From contig NZ_FUYN01000001.1 in the NCBI RefSeq assembly GCF_900168025.1, positions 62,001 to 126,000 of the forward strand: a stretch of DNA of 64,000 nt. The letters are read 5' to 3'. The notes under the pieces were generated by a model, which ran no database searches, was not told the DNA's origin, and saw nothing but the letters and a program-made list of their open reading frames with translations. This DNA comes from Acetoanaerobium noterae (GTDB lineage Bacteria; Bacillota; Clostridia; Peptostreptococcales; Filifactoraceae). The stretch's first letter is position 1. Each line of letters opens with the position of its first letter. The translations under genes and the position numbers were made by a program. Below, one piece after another: positions 27,985-62,326 of the stretch.

Positions 27985-28236
27985 ATAAAAAACCCCGTTC
28001 CTATGATATCTATTATATCACAGGGACGAGGTTAAATCGCGGTACCACCCTAATTGCCAATTGGCCACTTAATCTAACTGTAACGTAGTTAACGTGACTA
28101 TTTATTAGACAGTCAGGCTCAAAGTCAGCTTCAAGTAATAATAACCTAGGGACTTTCAGCATATGTCCCCTCTCTGTAAGGCAATTAAGCTACTTTACTA
28201 TTCTTATCATAGCCGTTTGGTATTAAAATTATATTG
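27985..28236 (-). ncRNA. T-box leader with GCU (alanine) specifier upstream of alaS
   Basis: On the minus strand the conserved T-box sequence AGGGTGGTACCGCG (28038-28051) is followed by a long terminator hairpin (28015-28033 with 27991-28009) and a T-run. Upstream the stem I AGAGA/GCTGAAAG elements are present, and the specifier loop reads GAA-GCT-GAC, so the specifier GCU (28127-28129) matches tRNA-Ala. Uncharged tRNA-Ala should bind and favour the antiterminator, turning on alaS when alanine-tRNA charging is low. Confidence 0.93.
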
Positions 28237-55839: not shown

Positions 55840-57297
55840 ATGCAAGGAATCGTAGATTTTCTTAACGGTATTATTTGGAGTAACGCACTTATTTATTTAT
55901 GTTTAGGTACTGGGGTTTATTTTTCTGTAATCCTAAAGTTCCCACAAGTAAGATTAATTAAGGATATGGTTAAACAGATGCTTAGTGGTGAGGCATCAGA
56001 AACTGGAGTTTCTTCATTCCAAGGCTTTGCTATGGCTCTTGGTGGAAGAGTTGGTACAGGTAACATCGCTGGGGTTGCTACAGCAATCGGAACTGGTGGT
56101 CCTGGAGCAGTATTTTGGATGTGGGCAATCGCTTTCCTTGGAGCGGGTTCAGCTTACATAGAGTCAGCACTTGCACAGGTTTATAAAGATGAGGTTGACG
56201 GCGAATATCGTGGAGGTCCTTCTTACTACATTGAAAAAGGACTTGGAATCAAATGGTATGCTATTCTATTTGCTGTTTGTGCAGTACTAGGAGTAGGAGT
56301 TTTCTTACCTGGAGTACAAGCTAACAGTATCGCAAGCTCAATGAACACTGCATTTGGAATTTCTCCTGCAATAACTGGAGCAATCGTAGTTGGTCTTTTA
56401 GCGTTCATTATCTTCGGAGGAACAAAGCGTATAGGTAAAGCTGCTGAGCTTATAGTTCCATTTATGGCTATTGCTTATATCATAGTTGCACTTATTATCA
56501 TATTTATGAACATCACCATGCTTCCTGATGTAATTGCTCTAATTTTCCGTTCAGCTTTTGGAGCTGACGCTGCATTTGGTGGTATCTTAGGAACTGCTAT
56601 TCAGTGGGGAGTAAAAAGAGGTATCTACTCAAACGAGGCTGGACAAGGTACAGGACCTATGGCTGCTGCTGCTGCTGAAGTTTCTCACCCTGCAAAGCAA
56701 GGTTTAGTTCAAGCTTTCTCTGTATATGTTGATACATTATTTGTTTGTTCAGCTACAGCTTTTATGATTCTTATTACTGGTATGTACAATGTTAAAGACG
56801 GAGCAGATGGCTTCATTGTAGAAAACATTCCTGGCGTAGAGATTGGGCCTGCTTACACGCAAATGGCAGTAAATACTCTTCTTCCTGGTTTTGGTCAAGC
56901 TTTCGTAGCAATCGCACTTTTCTTCTTTGCTTTTACTACTTTATTAGCTTACTACTACTATGCAGAGACTAACGTTGCTTATCTTTTCAAAGGTTCAAAA
57001 AATCACAAAACATATTTCTTACTAACTAAATTTGCTTTACTTGGTATGACATTCTTCGGAGCTATAAGAACAGCAGATTTAGCTTGGGCTCTTGGTGATA
57101 TCGGAGTTGGAGCAATGGCTTGGTTAAATATTATAGCAATAATTCTATTAACTAAGGTTGGTGTTGGTACACTTAAAGATTACGAAAAACAGAAAAAAGA
57201 AGGAAAAGATCCAATCTACGAGCCAGAAACTCTTGGCATTAAAAATGCAGATACTTGGAAAGCAATCGCTGCTAGATACAAAAAGAAAGTTTCATAA
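55840..57297 (+). CDS. sodium:alanine/glycine symporter (AGCS family)
   Basis: 485 residues with about ten or eleven membrane helices. Family motifs GRVGTGNIAGVATAIGTGGPGAVFWMW (about 69-95) and GVKRGIYSNEAGQGTGPMAAAAAEV (about 259-283) are clear. It imports alanine or glycine with Na+. AAGGAGG precedes the ATG. Monocistronic between its own promoter and a bidirectional terminator; a CodY-like site implies repression when amino acids are abundant. Confidence 0.94.
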   Translation: MQGIVDFLNGIIWSNALIYLCLGTGVYFSVILKFPQVRLIKDMVKQMLSGEASETGVSSFQGFAMALGGRVGTGNIAGVATAIGTGGPGAVFWMWAIAFLGAGSAYIESALAQVYKDEVDGEYRGGPSYYIEKGLGIKWYAILFAVCAVLGVGVFLPGVQANSIASSMNTAFGISPAITGAIVVGLLAFIIFGGTKRIGKAAELIVPFMAIAYIIVALIIIFMNITMLPDVIALIFRSAFGADAAFGGILGTAIQWGVKRGIYSNEAGQGTGPMAAAAAEVSHPAKQGLVQAFSVYVDTLFVCSATAFMILITGMYNVKDGADGFIVENIPGVEIGPAYTQMAVNTLLPGFGQAFVAIALFFFAFTTLLAYYYYAETNVAYLFKGSKNHKTYFLLTKFALLGMTFFGAIRTADLAWALGDIGVGAMAWLNIIAIILLTKVGVGTLKDYEKQKKEGKDPIYEPETLGIKNADTWKAIAARYKKKVS

Positions 57298-57310
57298 TTT
57301 AAACTTATAA

Positions 57311-57350
57311 AGTAAAAAATGGCTTGCATTTATGCAAGCCATTTTTTACT
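57311..57350. terminator. bidirectional terminator between the alanine symporter and the racemase
   Basis: A perfect 19-bp stem (57311-57329 with 57332-57350) centred on a two-base apparent loop has A- and T-runs on both sides. It ends both convergent transcripts. Confidence 0.92.
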
Positions 57351-58052
57351 TTAGTATTTATTCTTAACAATAGCCTCAATTGCTACATCCATAGGGTCTA
57401 TTAACGGTATATCAAAATGGGAAGAATTTAAAACTAGACCTATTTCGGTACAGCCAGCAATCAGTATCTGAGCTCCATTTTTTATCAATATTTCGCCAGT
57501 TTCAACTAGCATATCTATTGGTTTGCCTTCTATTACCCCACTTTTTATTCCATACTGCGGAGAATAAATAGCCTGCATTACTTTGTTTGTTTGGATATCG
57601 TAATCAGGATAGATTAAATTATAATCACTTAGATATTTATTAAATAATCCAGTTTTTAGGGTTCCGCTCGTTGCTAGAATACCAATATTTTTTATGTCAG
57701 GATAATTAGCTTTTATATAAATATCAAGTTCTCTTAGAGCATTCAATATTGGGAAGTTTATGCTTTCTTGAATCTCATCTATAAAATAATGAGCCGTGAT
57801 ACAAGGAATGCAAGCGACATCTACTTTTGCACATTCAAGGGTTTTTGCCGTCTCTATAAGAGCAGGAACTGGATTTTCTCCGTTTCCAAAGATTGCACTC
57901 GTTCTGTCTGGAATTTTACTATTGCTATCCATAATCACTCTAAAATGATCTTGATCTGTTTTTGAGGGAGTAGCTTTTATTAGCTTAAAGTAAAAGTGTG
58001 CCGTAGCTTCTGGACCCATTCCTCCAAGAATTCCTATTATTTTATCATTCAT
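57351..58052 (-). CDS. aspartate/glutamate racemase family protein
   Basis: About 233 residues. Two catalytic cysteines, Cys84 in CIPCITAHYF and Cys201 in AGCTEIGL, with GILGGMGPEAT (about 7-17) at the start, fit PLP-independent aspartate/glutamate racemases. The first Cys motif is usually CNT; here Asn is replaced by Ile, which may alter specificity. It overlaps nothing when started at the ATG 58052 (AGAGG at eight bases); a longer frame into the Mur ligase gene is unlikely. Last gene of a racemase / Mur ligase / ATP-grasp operon; D-aspartate is the most likely product, but this is inference. Confidence 0.85.
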   Translation of the reverse strand: MNDKIIGILGGMGPEATAHFYFKLIKATPSKTDQDHFRVIMDSNSKIPDRTSAIFGNGENPVPALIETAKTLECAKVDVACIPCITAHYFIDEIQESINFPILNALRELDIYIKANYPDIKNIGILATSGTLKTGLFNKYLSDYNLIYPDYDIQTNKVMQAIYSPQYGIKSGVIEGKPIDMLVETGEILIKNGAQILIAGCTEIGLVLNSSHFDIPLIDPMDVAIEAIVKNKY

Positions 58053-58077
58053 TGCTGTAACCTCTTTCTTATTATCT

Positions 58078-59628
58078 TTACTCAATTCCACACACTCTAT
58101 GCTTTAGGGGTTCAAATAATTCATCCTCAGATATAGATGGGTTCATTATTTTTAGTTTTTTAAGTGCTATACTAGCGCCATAATCCATTCCCTGACAACC
58201 AGCAAGAAGAATTACGTCATCCTCCTTAGCCCTATTTAAAGCTTCACCAATAGCATCTGAAAGATTCTCATATAGCTCAAGCTTTAGCTTCGAACCATTA
58301 ATAATGTCTCTAAACACTGCTTCTTCTTCATCAGTCACTATATCTTTTTCTGTTGTGTAATCTGCACTTTTAGTAGCAATAATTTCAGATAAATTAAGCT
58401 TTTTCGCCCATGTAACTATTGCCTGAGCATTTTCCTTATTTACAATAGGCCCTCTTGAACCTCTTATAGCATATACAAGATGCAGTTTATTATATTCCAT
58501 AAAATTAAGAGTTTCCATAGTAACATCTATGTTCCCAGCATTTGCAAAATGATCATCGATTATTTTAAAATCATTTTCATATATGAACTCAAATCTTCTT
58601 TCTACACCTTTAAAATTTAAAAAGCTTTCTTGTATTACAGCTATAGGTACCTTGCAAATTAGCGCCGCAGCAATTGCAGCCATAGCATTATATACGCTGT
58701 GATAGCCTGGCACAGAAAGAGATATCTCGAAGCTTTGATCCATATATAAATGCCCATTTATTGAAAATGGTTTAGAAATTTCTACTGTAAATTTACCTCT
58801 TCCTGAGGATAAATCTAGATTTTTGCACAATATCATAGCATTATCATTATTAACGCCATAAGTAAGTACATTGGCCTCTGTCTTATTAATTAGAGATGCT
58901 GCTTCTTCACAATCCATATTCAGTATAGCCCAGCTACCCTTCTTTGCATTGGTAATCAAACTTGATTTCAATGCTACATAGTTTTCAAAGGTTTCATGAA
59001 GATCAATGTGCTCTCTGCTAATATTGTTAAAAATAACGATGTCGTAATCAATCCCAGCAATCCTGTCAAGCTCAATAGCAGACGAAGACACTTCCATTGT
59101 TACATGTGTTAAACCATTTTCTTTCATTCTGTATATATAATTTTGAAGATCTAAGGACTCTGGTGTTGTTAAATCAGAAGCTATTTGTTCATCGCCTACT
59201 TTTATAAGCACTGTTCCAACAAGCCCAGTTTTAAAATTATTATTTTCTAGAATATTATCAATCATAAAAGCAGTTGTGGTTTTACCATTAGTAGCTGTTA
59301 TTCCAATCATCTTCATAAATTTTGAAGGGTGATTATAAAAATTACATGCACATAGAGCTAAAGAATGCCTAGCATCTGAAACCAAATATTGAGGAATATC
59401 AATATTATCTTGAATGCTTTCCACAACAGCACCTACAGCTCCTTTGTTTTTAGCATCTAGTAAATACTTATGTCCATCTGTCTTATATCCTTTGATACAA
59501 AAGAATAAATCTCCCTCTTTAACCTTAGCAGAATGATAAGCTATCCCCTGAATATTATGGTCATGGCTTAAAGGTCTGTTTTCCTCTAAAATTTCAATCC
59601 CTTTCAATAAAGAAGCAACGTCCATCAT
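58078..59628 (-). CDS. MurE-like Mur ligase with divergent substrate motifs
   Basis: 516 residues with the three-domain Mur ligase fold. N-domain (AYHSAKVKEGDLFFCIKGYKTDGHKY), ATP P-loop TATNGKTTTA (111-120), TTPE (154-157), MEVSSSA (178-184, usually MEVSSHA), NNISREHIDLHETFENYVALK (201-221) and GVERRFE (341-347). The C-terminal MurE DNPR (or Lys-type) amino-acid motif is absent; IDDHFANAGN (357-366) replaces VDYAHTPD, and ATKSADYT occurs where DNPR should be. So it probably is not the housekeeping MurE and adds a different amino acid. It starts with ATG behind GAGGAGA. Middle gene of the operon. Confidence 0.85.
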   Translation of the reverse strand: MMDVASLLKGIEILEENRPLSHDHNIQGIAYHSAKVKEGDLFFCIKGYKTDGHKYLLDAKNKGAVGAVVESIQDNIDIPQYLVSDARHSLALCACNFYNHPSKFMKMIGITATNGKTTTAFMIDNILENNNFKTGLVGTVLIKVGDEQIASDLTTPESLDLQNYIYRMKENGLTHVTMEVSSSAIELDRIAGIDYDIVIFNNISREHIDLHETFENYVALKSSLITNAKKGSWAILNMDCEEAASLINKTEANVLTYGVNNDNAMILCKNLDLSSGRGKFTVEISKPFSINGHLYMDQSFEISLSVPGYHSVYNAMAAIAAALICKVPIAVIQESFLNFKGVERRFEFIYENDFKIIDDHFANAGNIDVTMETLNFMEYNKLHLVYAIRGSRGPIVNKENAQAIVTWAKKLNLSEIIATKSADYTTEKDIVTDEEEAVFRDIINGSKLKLELYENLSDAIGEALNRAKEDDVILLAGCQGMDYGASIALKKLKIMNPSISEDELFEPLKHRVCGIE

Positions 59629-59655
59629 TATAATTCTCCTCACGTAAAATTAAGC

Positions 59656-60837
59656 TTACCTAAAAATTTTTTTAGTTATTTTTTTTGAAATACTTTTGCT
59701 AAAAGCAAAAAACGGCTTAGGATCTGAATAGTCCCATATAGCATATGCTTTAGGTTTAAAATATGATTTTAGAACCTGAGATAGCTTCAGCTGTTTTGTC
59801 TTTAGATATCCTCTAACAGCAAAGAAATCCTCGTAAGCATACCAAAACACTAGCCCAGTATCCTTTTTAAGCTCAAAAGGTGGTTGTGGCTTTCCTATTA
59901 GCTCAGAATAGGTTAAATATGGCATGTTTATCCCTGCCTTATACAGCAAGCTATTTAAATTAGTTATTCTTACATTCACCTCTATTAAATAAAATTCTCC
60001 TGTTACTGCATCTTTTTTAAACTCAATTTCCGCAAATCCTTTAAAACCAACATTTTCTAAAAATTTTGCTCCTATATCATAGAGCTCTTGGACATATTTC
60101 TGTCCAGTATATACTGAGGCTCCAAAATTTATAGGATACTGTCTAAATTTCTGGCAAGTCATCCAGTTTGTAACTTTTGAATCCTGATTTAAGTAAGCAT
60201 CAAAAGTGTACATATGGTCGTCAAATCCTGGAATTATTCTTTGTACAATTACTTCCAGCTTTTTCTCATGTACTTTTTTTACTGCTTCAAGCAATTCTTC
60301 CTTGTTATTAACCTTAAACATCTTTCTTCTAAAAACCGACACAAATGATGGAGAATCAGTAGGTTTAACAATACATGGATAGCCAATTTGCTTGTCAACT
60401 TTATCTAAATAATCCTCATCGCTTACATAAACTGTTTCTGGAACTTTAACAGAATTTTTTACTGCAAGAGCGTGAAGCTTCTCTTTATCCATAAGATTAG
60501 TGTAAATTCCCTGCTGATTCTGAGGAATAAGGTAATATTCTCTAAGCTCGTAGAGATACTCATCTACAAACTCAACATATGGATCAGCACAAGGAATCAG
60601 CACGGGTTTTAGAGCTTGCTTTGATGCATAATCTATTAAAAACTGTAAAAACTCTTTAGGTTGTTTTTTATAGTGTGGACCGATTAATTTTTCCTTACAA
60701 TATTTTGATTCAAAAGCATAAGAGCCTTCATAGCTATAATCTACAGCCGCTACTTCAACACCCATCACACCTAGACATCTTATTGTACTTAAGCCTATAT
60801 AATAATTAGCACCTAAAATAACTGCTTTATTAGACAC
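59656..60837 (-). CDS. ATP-grasp ligase
   Basis: 393 residues. Pre-ATP-grasp domain (AVILGANYYIGLSTIRCLGVMG), then the ATP-grasp core: IGYPCIVKPTDSPS (151-164, Lys158), VIVQRIIPGFDDH (about 197-209), GFAEIEFKKD (267-276) and EVNVRITNLNSL (286-297, acidic/Asn metal ligands). It resembles carboxylate-amine ligases, including D-aspartate ligases that act on wall precursors. The start is GTG with AGGGGG upstream. First gene of the operon, 27 bp ahead of the Mur ligase. Exact substrate unknown. Confidence 0.83.
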   Translation of the reverse strand: MSNKAVILGANYYIGLSTIRCLGVMGVEVAAVDYSYEGSYAFESKYCKEKLIGPHYKKQPKEFLQFLIDYASKQALKPVLIPCADPYVEFVDEYLYELREYYLIPQNQQGIYTNLMDKEKLHALAVKNSVKVPETVYVSDEDYLDKVDKQIGYPCIVKPTDSPSFVSVFRRKMFKVNNKEELLEAVKKVHEKKLEVIVQRIIPGFDDHMYTFDAYLNQDSKVTNWMTCQKFRQYPINFGASVYTGQKYVQELYDIGAKFLENVGFKGFAEIEFKKDAVTGEFYLIEVNVRITNLNSLLYKAGINMPYLTYSELIGKPQPPFELKKDTGLVFWYAYEDFFAVRGYLKTKQLKLSQVLKSYFKPKAYAIWDYSDPKPFFAFSKSISKKITKKIFR

Positions 60838-60867
60838 GGTAATCCCCCTAAAATAGATTCTAATATA

Positions 60868-60896
60868 ATTATCAACACTTAAATATATCTTTTCAA
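60868..60896 (-). promoter_or_regulatory. predicted promoter of the ATP-grasp / Mur ligase / racemase operon
   Basis: TTGAAA and GATAAT with a 17-bp spacer on the minus strand, about 30 bp upstream of the ATP-grasp GTG start. Confidence 0.6.
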
Positions 60897-60962
60897 ACTA
60901 ATATTTTATCATGAAAATCTAATCTATAAAACCCTATAGTAAATATAGTTTTTCTTTGGCAA

Positions 60963-61463
60963 TTAAAGATTGATTATTAAGCTCTTCACTGAGTTAATTG
61001 CATAATCATAATCATTATTATTTTCAATTATGTAATCAGAATACTTTTTATATAATCCTATTCTTTCGTTATATATTTTTATAAGAGCTGTTGGATTATC
61101 CTTTACTAGTGGTCTATTATTAACATCCATTTCCTCTAATATTTTTTCTGGATTTCTATCAATAAAAATTATACTGTATCCATTATTCTTCAATATTTCA
61201 ATATTACTTGAGTCAAGAATAATCCCCCCACCGCAATCTATAATACAGCTTTCATTAATAACAGCATTTTTTAATACTTTTGTTTCAATTTTTCTAAAAT
61301 ACGGCTCCCCAAATTTCTCAAATATATCGGATATGCTTAAATTGAGTTCCTTTTCCACCATCTTATCAATAGAAATAAGCTTAAGAGCCAAGTCTTTTGA
61401 AATGTCATTAGCTATACTGCTTTTTCCACATCCCATCATTCCTATAAATGCTATTTTTTTCAT
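60963..61463 (-). CDS. aroK: shikimate kinase
   Basis: 166 residues. The P-loop is GMMGCGKSS (8-16), with IIDCGGGIIL near 65-74 (shikimate-binding GGG) and NRPLVKD in the lid near 108-114. It phosphorylates shikimate in aromatic amino-acid synthesis. The open frame is 15 codons longer, but GAGGT seven bases before the ATG at 61463 and homologous starts favour the shorter form. Divergent from aroD. Confidence 0.93.
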   Translation of the reverse strand: MKKIAFIGMMGCGKSSIANDISKDLALKLISIDKMVEKELNLSISDIFEKFGEPYFRKIETKVLKNAVINESCIIDCGGGIILDSSNIEILKNNGYSIIFIDRNPEKILEEMDVNNRPLVKDNPTALIKIYNERIGLYKKYSDYIIENNNDYDYAINSVKSLIINL

Positions 61464-61500
61464 CTTCTTTACCTCATTTATATTTATTATTTTTAAAACA

Positions 61501-61529
61501 TTGTCCAATCAAAATTAACATGTTAAAAT
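61501..61529 (+). promoter_or_regulatory. predicted promoter of aroD
   Basis: TTGTCC and TAAAAT with a 17-bp spacer, 32 bp upstream of the aroD start. Confidence 0.55.
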
Positions 61530-61561
61530 AATGAAAATTTATGTAAAGCTAGGAGAATAAT

Positions 61562-62326
61562 ATGAAAATCGAAGCTACTAAAAAAATCCAAATAAAAAAC
61601 ATTGAAATCGGGGGAAGCAAAACCCTAATTTGTACTCCTATAATACCCTCTACTCTTGAAGATTTTGTTGCAGATATCGACGATGCTCTATCTCAAAATC
61701 CAGATGTAGTTGAGTGGAGATTAGATTACTTTGACAATCTCAGTTCATTAGATTATGTATATAATACCTTAACTTCAATTAAATATAAACTAGCAAATAC
61801 AATATTTATCTTGACTCTAAGAGATAATAAAGAAGGCGGAAAATGCACTCTTTCTCAAGAAGATAAGCTCAAAATAATTCAAAACGCTCTAAAAACAGAT
61901 ACTATCGATATATTAGATATAGAACAAATCCAAGGAAAAGATTATATATCTACAGTTAAACAAATGATTAATAATACTAATACGAAGCTTATACTTTCTT
62001 ATCACAATTTTGAGTTTACACCAAATAAAGAAGAAATCGTTCAAAAAATAGAAAAGGCCCTCGAATTAGGGGCCGATATTCCTAAAGTAGCATATATGCC
62101 ACATTCTAGTGAAGATGTACTTTGTTTATTAGATGCTAGTCTTTCATGCAGAAAATTATTAGAGGCTCCTATGGTGAGCATCTCCATGGGTGACCTAGGA
62201 AAAATTTCTAGAGTATATGCTGGCCAATTTGGCTCTGATATTACCTTTGCTTCTTTGAAAGACTCAACCGCTCCAGGTCAAATCAAAATTGATGATTTAA
62301 AGAGAGCTTGGACCCATCTTTTTTAA
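61562..62326 (+). CDS. aroD: 3-dehydroquinate dehydratase type I
   Basis: 254 residues, Schiff-base type I enzyme. EWRLDYFD (51-58), TLRDNKEGG (85-93, Arg86), the catalytic His148 (SYHNFEFT) and the Schiff-base Lys175 (IPKVAYMP) are visible; [24 protein letters not shown] closes the barrel. It dehydrates 3-dehydroquinate to 3-dehydroshikimate. TAGGAGAA precedes the ATG. Its 3' end overlaps the mscL gene by 30 bp on the opposite strand. Confidence 0.94.

Follow-up and report, generated by a model that had tools for sequence, protein, structure and literature searches.

The ATPG-MurE*-racemase operon and its divergent MurE

The 64,000-nucleotide stretch of Acetoanaerobium noterae DNA analysed here (the window; contig NZ_FUYN01000001.1 of assembly GCF_900168025.1, positions 62,001 to 126,000) carries on its minus strand a three-gene tandem, 60837-57351, that encodes in this order an ATP-grasp carboxylate-amine ligase (ATPG), a MurE-type UDP-N-acetylmuramic acid (UDP-MurNAc)-tripeptide synthetase (MurE*) and an Asp/Glu-type racemase. 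A preliminary description, made from the bare sequence, had named these genes in this order and assigned them to these families, and the open reading frames (ORFs) and the Pfam and TIGR matches agree with it. We find that MurE* has a rebuilt amino-acid domain and that the genome shows no second MurE, and we propose, with a probability of about 0.5, that the operon makes a stem peptide for the wall in which a non-standard third residue bears D-Asp. The genes lie as follows, their start codons being our reading of the frames:

59656..60837, minus strand: ATPG, ATP-grasp carboxylate-amine ligase, gene 1; ORF of 393 amino acids, GTG start after AGGGGG
58078..59628, minus strand: MurE*, MurE-type UDP-MurNAc-tripeptide synthetase; frame open to 59643, ATG at 59628 after AGGAG preferred
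57351..58052, minus strand: Asp/Glu-type racemase; frame 58091-57351, ATG at 58052 preferred

The MurE* start at 59628 is 27 bases past the ATPG stop and the racemase start at 58052 is 25 nucleotides past the MurE* stop, short gaps which suggest that the three genes may be translated as a unit.

MurE* contains three Mur_ligase domains and scores 281.2 bits on TIGR01085 murE (cut-off 257.3); it is the one protein above this cut-off in a genome that is 99.92% complete, the remaining Mur-type matches being weaker and located at murF, murD, murC and folC (named by eye). The dcw cluster (L042; names by eye) runs mraW, ftsL-like, pbp, murF, mraY, murD, ftsW and murG, with no murE at its usual place between pbp and murF, and the closed circular 2.63-Mb A. 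noterae chromosome likewise encodes a single MurE. With no other MurE found in the genome, the role of MurE* in adding the third residue in Acetoanaerobium is well supported, and we consider it very probable that it performs the MurE step there; what the preliminary description called an atypical Mur ligase is the organism's sole MurE and no addition to another one. PLSDB holds a 2,633,942-base record, NZ_CP154629.1 (L181), under the name "Acetoanaerobium noterae strain DSL2 plasmid pTPELB2"; it is evidently a chromosome deposited under a plasmid title, and it carries a sole murE-type gene and a lysA-like gene.

Among 14 genomes checked, MurE* alone occurs in eight (G000, G001, G005, G016, G027, G038, G055 and G033), both kinds of MurE in three and an ordinary MurE alone in three; G005 and G055 are 79% complete, and the G033 MurE*, at 239.7 bits, is below the TIGR01085 cut-off. 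A full ordinary MurE is missing from 11 of 31 further genomes and records, for which murE matches were listed only to 1e-45; these 11 are the A. noterae chromosome and ten metagenome-assembled genomes (MAGs) of unstated completeness, and G517 has a further partial match. An ordinary MurE is not seen in Acetoanaerobium and several other lineages; most carriers among the Bacilli keep both.

Per-domain profiles, built from 13 ordinary MurEs cut by domain, locate the divergence. The window MurE* scores 83.8, 174.6 and 26.8 bits on domains 1, 2 and 3, respectively, and six other MurE* proteins score 89-116, 117-172 and 11-23 bits; the domain 3 profile gives 94-185 bits with 11 other MurEs, and 8.8 and 7.1 bits with the genome's own MurF and MurD. 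These scores indicate that the front of MurE*, which serves the UDP-MurNAc-dipeptide and ATP, is ordinary and that the amino-acid domain is rebuilt. Neither this rebuilding nor the displacement of the ordinary MurE had been noticed in the preliminary description.

A search of 84,980 species genomes with the C-terminal part of MurE* returned 167 relatives, and the analysis went on with the best 80 of these; one locus without a called MurE* ORF (L112) was dropped, leaving 79, with carriers mainly in the Bacillaceae, Paenibacillaceae and Clostridia. A tree of 106 rows, made by a quick method and with long branches, places 86 MurE* sequences on one side of a branch with an SH-like approximate likelihood ratio test (SH-aLRT) support of 99, apart from 13 ordinary MurEs and four members of a further group. 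The 86 comprise the window, nine sequences from relatives and 76 of the 79 loci, three loci that duplicate genomes already present (G001, G058 and G034) being omitted. DNPx (residues 380-480), GGDR and GKGHE are each absent from all 86, as is DNPR, the meso-diaminopimelate (meso-DAP)-type form of the first; found instead are DDHxAN (86/86), IRGxRG (85/86) and GCQxMD (81/86). Every one of the 86 has a P-loop. As the sections of PMC3829189 drawn on here describe, DNPx helps to hold the amino acid in characterised DAP- and Lys-type MurEs, the Arg and Asn of DNPR contact the DAP carboxylate, and the Staphylococcus aureus MurE mutants N407A and E460A are inactive and very weak, respectively. The AlphaFold model of MurE* (predicted local distance difference test, pLDDT, 88.9) superposes on S. 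aureus MurE 4c12 with Z 39.1 over 474 residues (root-mean-square deviation, rmsd, 3.2), and 4c13 and Mycobacterium tuberculosis MurE 2xja (Z 38.3) are tied with it; with Lys-type and M. tuberculosis enzymes tied, the fold does not tell a Lys enzyme from a DAP enzyme. On the pMurE model MurE* reaches 173 bits (cut-off 600). A further MurE-like group in family f3 (MurE-2-like; L054, L055, L056 and L058) has an IRGxRG-type motif without the rest of MurE*.

Gene company, partner enzymes and flanking signals

We then consider the company that MurE* keeps, taking as neighbours the four ORFs on either side in each of the 79 loci, which include those of G001, G058 and G034. ATPG and racemase stand near MurE* in 25 loci and are joined by an AsnB-type amidotransferase in 13 more; the other sets are ATPG with AsnB (4), ATPG alone (9), racemase alone (6), racemase with AsnB (1), AsnB alone (1) and none of these (20). 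With ATPG and racemase both present in 38 of 79 loci, the three-gene arrangement is not due to chance. A racemase is near MurE* in 45/79 loci and AsnB in 19/79. In 51 pairs ATPG precedes MurE* in the same orientation at a distance of up to 800 bases, and in 47 of these the distance is at most 100 bases. Of the 19 loci with AsnB, 15 have it no more than 600 bases downstream of MurE*, and three (L116, L119 and L132) have it upstream, where it may be unrelated; the window's own operon has none. A C39-like peptidase follows AsnB in 14 loci (e.g., L065:10586-11407); the one of the 14 that was Pfam-scanned supports the family name, a membrane stretch is visible by eye at the N-terminus, and the protein is possibly a hydrolase fitted to a modified wall.

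The association extends to genomes in which the genes are apart. Among 59 relatives, MurE* occurs in 11 and ATPG in 11, with both in 10 (Fisher p 1.9e-9); among 393 Clostridia at least 90% complete, the counts are 17, 14 and 13 (Fisher p 4.7e-20). These p values ignore relatedness, and G000, G023 and G034 are in both samples. The Clostridia counts use E < 1e-60 for MurE* and 1e-80 for ATPG, the former limit having been set after nine MurE-2-like matches appeared (E 7e-42 to 1e-55); at the search threshold of 1e-40, MurE* is in 26 Clostridia, which include all 14 ATPG genomes. Among 398 Bacilli around carrier G061, ATPG at E < 1e-100 is found in G061 and one other genome; in both the Clostridia and the Bacilli samples scoring was limited to the first 4 to 8 candidates of each genome, and absences are upper bounds. 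MurE* and ATPG are on different contigs or hundreds of kilobases apart in four g11 genomes, G671 and five f38 genomes, and in five MAGs (G511, G512, G515, G519 and G532) ATPG is not linked to MurE* and lies on another contig. In family f38, ATPG is elsewhere than beside MurE* in 5 of the 9 genomes that carry MurE*. The idea of a shared pathway, suggested in the preliminary description, is thus supported by the neighbour check, with all three genes in 38/79 loci and co-occurrence also where they are unlinked. In all six f38 loci inspected (L230, L232, L234, L235, L240 and L241), MurE* stands in a conserved row of housekeeping genes, flanked by a hemZ-like gene and aspS.

ATPG has Pfam matches to Dala_Dala_lig_C (1.4e-09) and CPSase_L_D2, is 99.2% identical to a protein in an A. 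noterae record, and is modelled by AlphaFold (pLDDT 88.3) with an ATP-grasp fold. We propose from its family and setting that it may be a ligase for D-Asp, or another D-amino acid, with D-Asp somewhat favoured over even odds. The racemase matches Asp_Glu_race and scores 171.3 bits on TIGR00035 (cut-off 93.1); both cysteine motifs, PCITAH and AGCTE, are present, and both are kept in 45/45 cluster racemases. Its best solved match is the aspartate racemase 1jfl (phmmer, 3.1e-51), and from family and context we propose that it supplies D-Asp.

Seven loci in the Peptostreptococcales (L212-L218) are tandems of AslA-like ligase, racemase and MurE, carried by five of five g8 genomes among the 59 relatives and by G002 and G003 of the window's own family; in G023, the only ATPG genome without a strict MurE*, ATPG directly precedes a MurE of ordinary build (L223) with DNPK. 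These eight ligase-linked MurEs outside MurE* have DNPD in five, DNPK in one, no motif in two and DNPR in none, and ordinary MurEs without a ligase neighbour have DNPR in 15/19, all within loci L026-L041 (15/16). MurEs with a linked D-amino-acid ligase have thus moved away from the DAP motif along separate lines, and some without such a neighbour have done so as well. A stricter rule, by which only MurEs with a linked ligase would lack DNPR, does not hold strictly, given L039 and three g4 MurEs. The latter belong to three genomes of the window's family (G004, G008 and G010; L219-L221), which encode a DNPD MurE without a neighbouring ligase or racemase and have no DapF match above the cut-off; genus g4 likely has a non-DAP wall by another route.

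Two signals flank the operon:

57308-57353, both strands: bidirectional intrinsic terminator; palindromic stem of 20 pairs
60896-60868, minus strand: promoter-like hexamers, 10/12 matches

The terminator is palindromic and directly follows the convergent agcS, which ends at 57297, and it is therefore common to the operon and agcS. Terminator-like sites as a class are near expectation (5 found, 3.7 expected), and the case for this one lies in the strength of its own stem. The promoter proposed earlier at 60868-60896 does not rise above chance, with 37 such sites in the window against 41.9 expected. The nearest upstream gene, a shikimate-kinase gene on the same strand, ends 125 bp before ATPG, and in A. 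pronyense the upstream neighbour is a different gene; the operon is likely transcribed independently of it. Shikimate kinase and type I dehydroquinase genes occupy 60963-62326, directly upstream, and a T-box leader (RF00230, 124.8 bits) lies at 28019-28219 on the minus strand.

Proposed pathway and its alternatives

In the pathway that we propose, MurE* would add the third residue to UDP-MurNAc-L-Ala-D-Glu, with its rebuilt C-terminal domain selecting that residue, which is probably not meso-DAP but another diamino acid, for instance L-Lys or L-Orn. The racemase would make D-Asp, as its family and context suggest, and ATPG would couple D-Asp to the third residue at its free amino group to give a branch or cross-bridge, for which Lactococcus and Enterococcus offer precedents; where relatives have an AsnB-type enzyme, this would amidate the branch. 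Acetoanaerobium and several lineages without an ordinary MurE would depend on this pathway. That MurE* uses a residue other than meso-DAP we regard as probable. Of the two products envisaged in the preliminary description, a D-amino acid on a UDP-muramyl peptide is the best reading, and a soluble peptide product finds no support. A bolder version is that MurE* is a further kind of MurE, its amino-acid domain replaced, which with ATPG installs an uncatalogued position-3 residue or a ready D-Asp dipeptide, having displaced the canonical MurE in Acetoanaerobium and several lineages, with two stem-peptide chemistries side by side in many Bacilli and Clostridia; this we put forward tentatively, as an unlikely but specific proposal.

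Several observations weigh against the proposed D-Asp pathway. Of the 50 genomes behind named loci, 49 hold MurE* and an ordinary MurE (matches listed only to 1e-55), A. pronyense (G001) being the sole exception, and in these 49 the module comes in addition to the ordinary pathway. MurE* stands without ATPG in 11/11 Psychrobacillus-group genomes (ten so named and Bacillus sp. FJAT-22090), in the six Paenibacillus in which no ATPG is linked and in Filobacillus. An AslA-like ligase is present in all 18, and a swap of this ligase for ATPG is only suggestive, since Paenibacillus G085 has both. ATPG is likewise lacking in G033 and in 4 of the 17 MurE* genomes of the Clostridia sample, and four MAGs with MurE* (G522, G524, G528 and G531) have no ATP-grasp match at E < 1e-15. 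No racemase is near MurE* in 34/79 loci. The racemase passes the cut-off of the CuyB cysteate-racemase model (NF052483; 195.5 against 190). The nearest folds of ATPG are general ATP-grasp enzymes with tied Z scores (2pn1 with a VIA Z of 25.9 and an rmsd of 3.2 across 294 residues, and further rows tied with it), which give no hint of substrate; a D-Asp ligase chain is not among the matches listed, and this excludes nothing. In a ligase tree, 19 ATPG rows (93/86) are apart from 17 AslA-like rows (98/100) named by gene context, which rules out that ATPG is simply AslA, within the limits set by long branches and by a tree that holds no characterised AslA sequence. DNPR is absent in 4/19 unlinked MurEs (no motif in L039, DNPD in L219-L221), so the motif does not follow ligase linkage strictly. 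Among the literature matches listed, in which subscription journals are thinly covered, none gives the wall composition of Acetoanaerobium; none is a paper on the MurE* clade either, which is no proof of absence. DapF is over the cut-off in six sole-MurE* genomes (G000, G001, G016, G027, G038 and G033) and in neither G005 nor G055, both 79% complete.

The DapF result disposes of the notion that sole-MurE* genomes lack this enzyme, shows that meso-DAP is available in the cell, and bears on the strongest alternative, that meso-DAP remains the residue added by MurE*, whose pocket would be constructed in another way, and that ATPG attaches a D-amino acid to the amino group of DAP or at another site, giving a DAP-type wall with a side branch. 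DAP pathway genes beside dapF in A. pronyense (read by eye) and the prevalence of carriers in the Bacillaceae, Paenibacillaceae and Clostridia, in which DAP walls are usual, are in keeping with it. Lysine synthesis could explain DapF, however, as LysA is found in the A. noterae record (46.1% identity) and a LysA-like gene is beside dapF in G033. DNPR, the motif whose Arg and Asn contact the DAP carboxylate (PMC3829189), is present in 0/86 MurE* and 0/8 other ligase-linked MurEs, and genomes with both enzymes would own two DAP ligases; we consider this alternative unlikely.

A second possibility, which we judge quite improbable, is that ATPG first makes a free dipeptide (e.g., Lys or Orn with D-Asp) that MurE* then attaches by way of an altered pocket, much as Ddl serves MurF. 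The rebuilt domain 3 and the close tracking of MurE* by ATPG would fit, and the L-amino-acid dipeptide ligases 3vot and 3vmm are among the ATPG fold matches, as are many other ATP-grasp enzymes; MurE* is also found without ATPG, however, and the MurE that adjoins ATPG in G023 has an ordinary domain 3 (184.6 bits). Similarly improbable is that the racemase supplies another D-amino acid, stem D-Glu or cysteate, from a merely convenient place in the operon. The racemase-free loci favour this, as does CuyB, which is passed by the window racemase and by two of three other MurE*/ATPG-linked racemases (205.0 and 194.1, with the third at 189.3 below). Racemases next to AslA-like ligases are themselves split (216.8 passes, 162.2 fails), so this cut-off does not settle the substrate, and the best solved match remains an aspartate racemase. 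A non-wall product, a cyanophycin-like polymer or soluble peptide, is suggested by the pairing of ATP-grasp and Mur ligase as in cyanophycin synthetase, with CphA among the fold matches, and we regard it as very improbable, as domain 1 for UDP-MurNAc is kept (83.8 bits), CphA aligns only with residues ~77-512 and MurE* is the sole MurE in whole genomes; the polymer itself is ruled out by the kept domain, the separate genes and MurE* as the only MurE.

MurE is an essential enzyme that determines which chemical type of wall is made, and a MurE clade without the amino-acid motif of characterised MurEs, present as the sole MurE of whole genomes, offers a handle on how position-3 specificity evolves. 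Genomes with MurE* alone, with both enzymes and with AslA-linked MurEs form a natural set for predicting wall type from genes. Two wall peptides of different kinds may be made where both enzymes are present, and this would bear on wall antibiotics, hydrolases and spore walls.

Comparison with known systems

The preliminary description knew of no named system with this gene set; there are in fact relatives, the aslA-racD and asnH genes of Lactococcus (PMC4155827) and the seven tandems of AslA-like ligase, racemase and MurE described above. In the parts of PMC4155827 drawn on here, the ATP-grasp ligase AslA of Lactococcus lactis adds D-Asp to the L-Lys of the stem, racD is in the aslA operon and AsnH amidates the D-Asp. 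The operon is like this system in having an ATP-grasp ligase and a racemase together, with an AsnB-type partner near 19/79 MurE* loci; it is unlike AslA and Aslfm of Enterococcus faecium in that ATPG forms a separate clade and in having a dedicated, divergent MurE in the operon. Two AslA-like loci in Bacilli (L170 and L180) have the order AsnB, ligase, racemase. The L212-L218 tandems bring the same three functions side by side, but in the order ligase-racemase-MurE, with a ligase of the AslA-like clade and with MurEs that, unlike MurE*, have an ordinary domain 3 (94-145 bits) and DNPD or no motif.

The walls of Psychrobacillus are of the L-Orn-D-Glu type. The AslA-like ligase of the Psychrobacillus group (L178, L201, L202 and L204-L211) and of Filobacillus (L203) is a candidate D-Glu ligase for such walls, and an Orn-D-Glu wall is given for Filobacillus in the title of a reference in PMC9781867.

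In cyanophycin synthetase CphA1, ATP-grasp and Mur-type ligases act together. There both are in one chain, whereas here the genes are separate and the UDP-MurNAc domain is present; on the cyanophycin synthetase model TIGR02068 the scores are 31 and 93 bits, against 850. The pseudomurein clusters of methanogens, as far as the text of PMC11915815 used here goes, group Mur ligases with a CarB-like ATP-grasp protein; they resemble the operon in this grouping and differ in being archaeal, and the word "racemase" is absent from the main text of that study. Compared, finally, with canonical MurE (L-Lys in S. aureus, meso-DAP in Escherichia coli and M. tuberculosis), MurE* shares the three domains and the P-loop and differs in being without DNPx and GKGHE.

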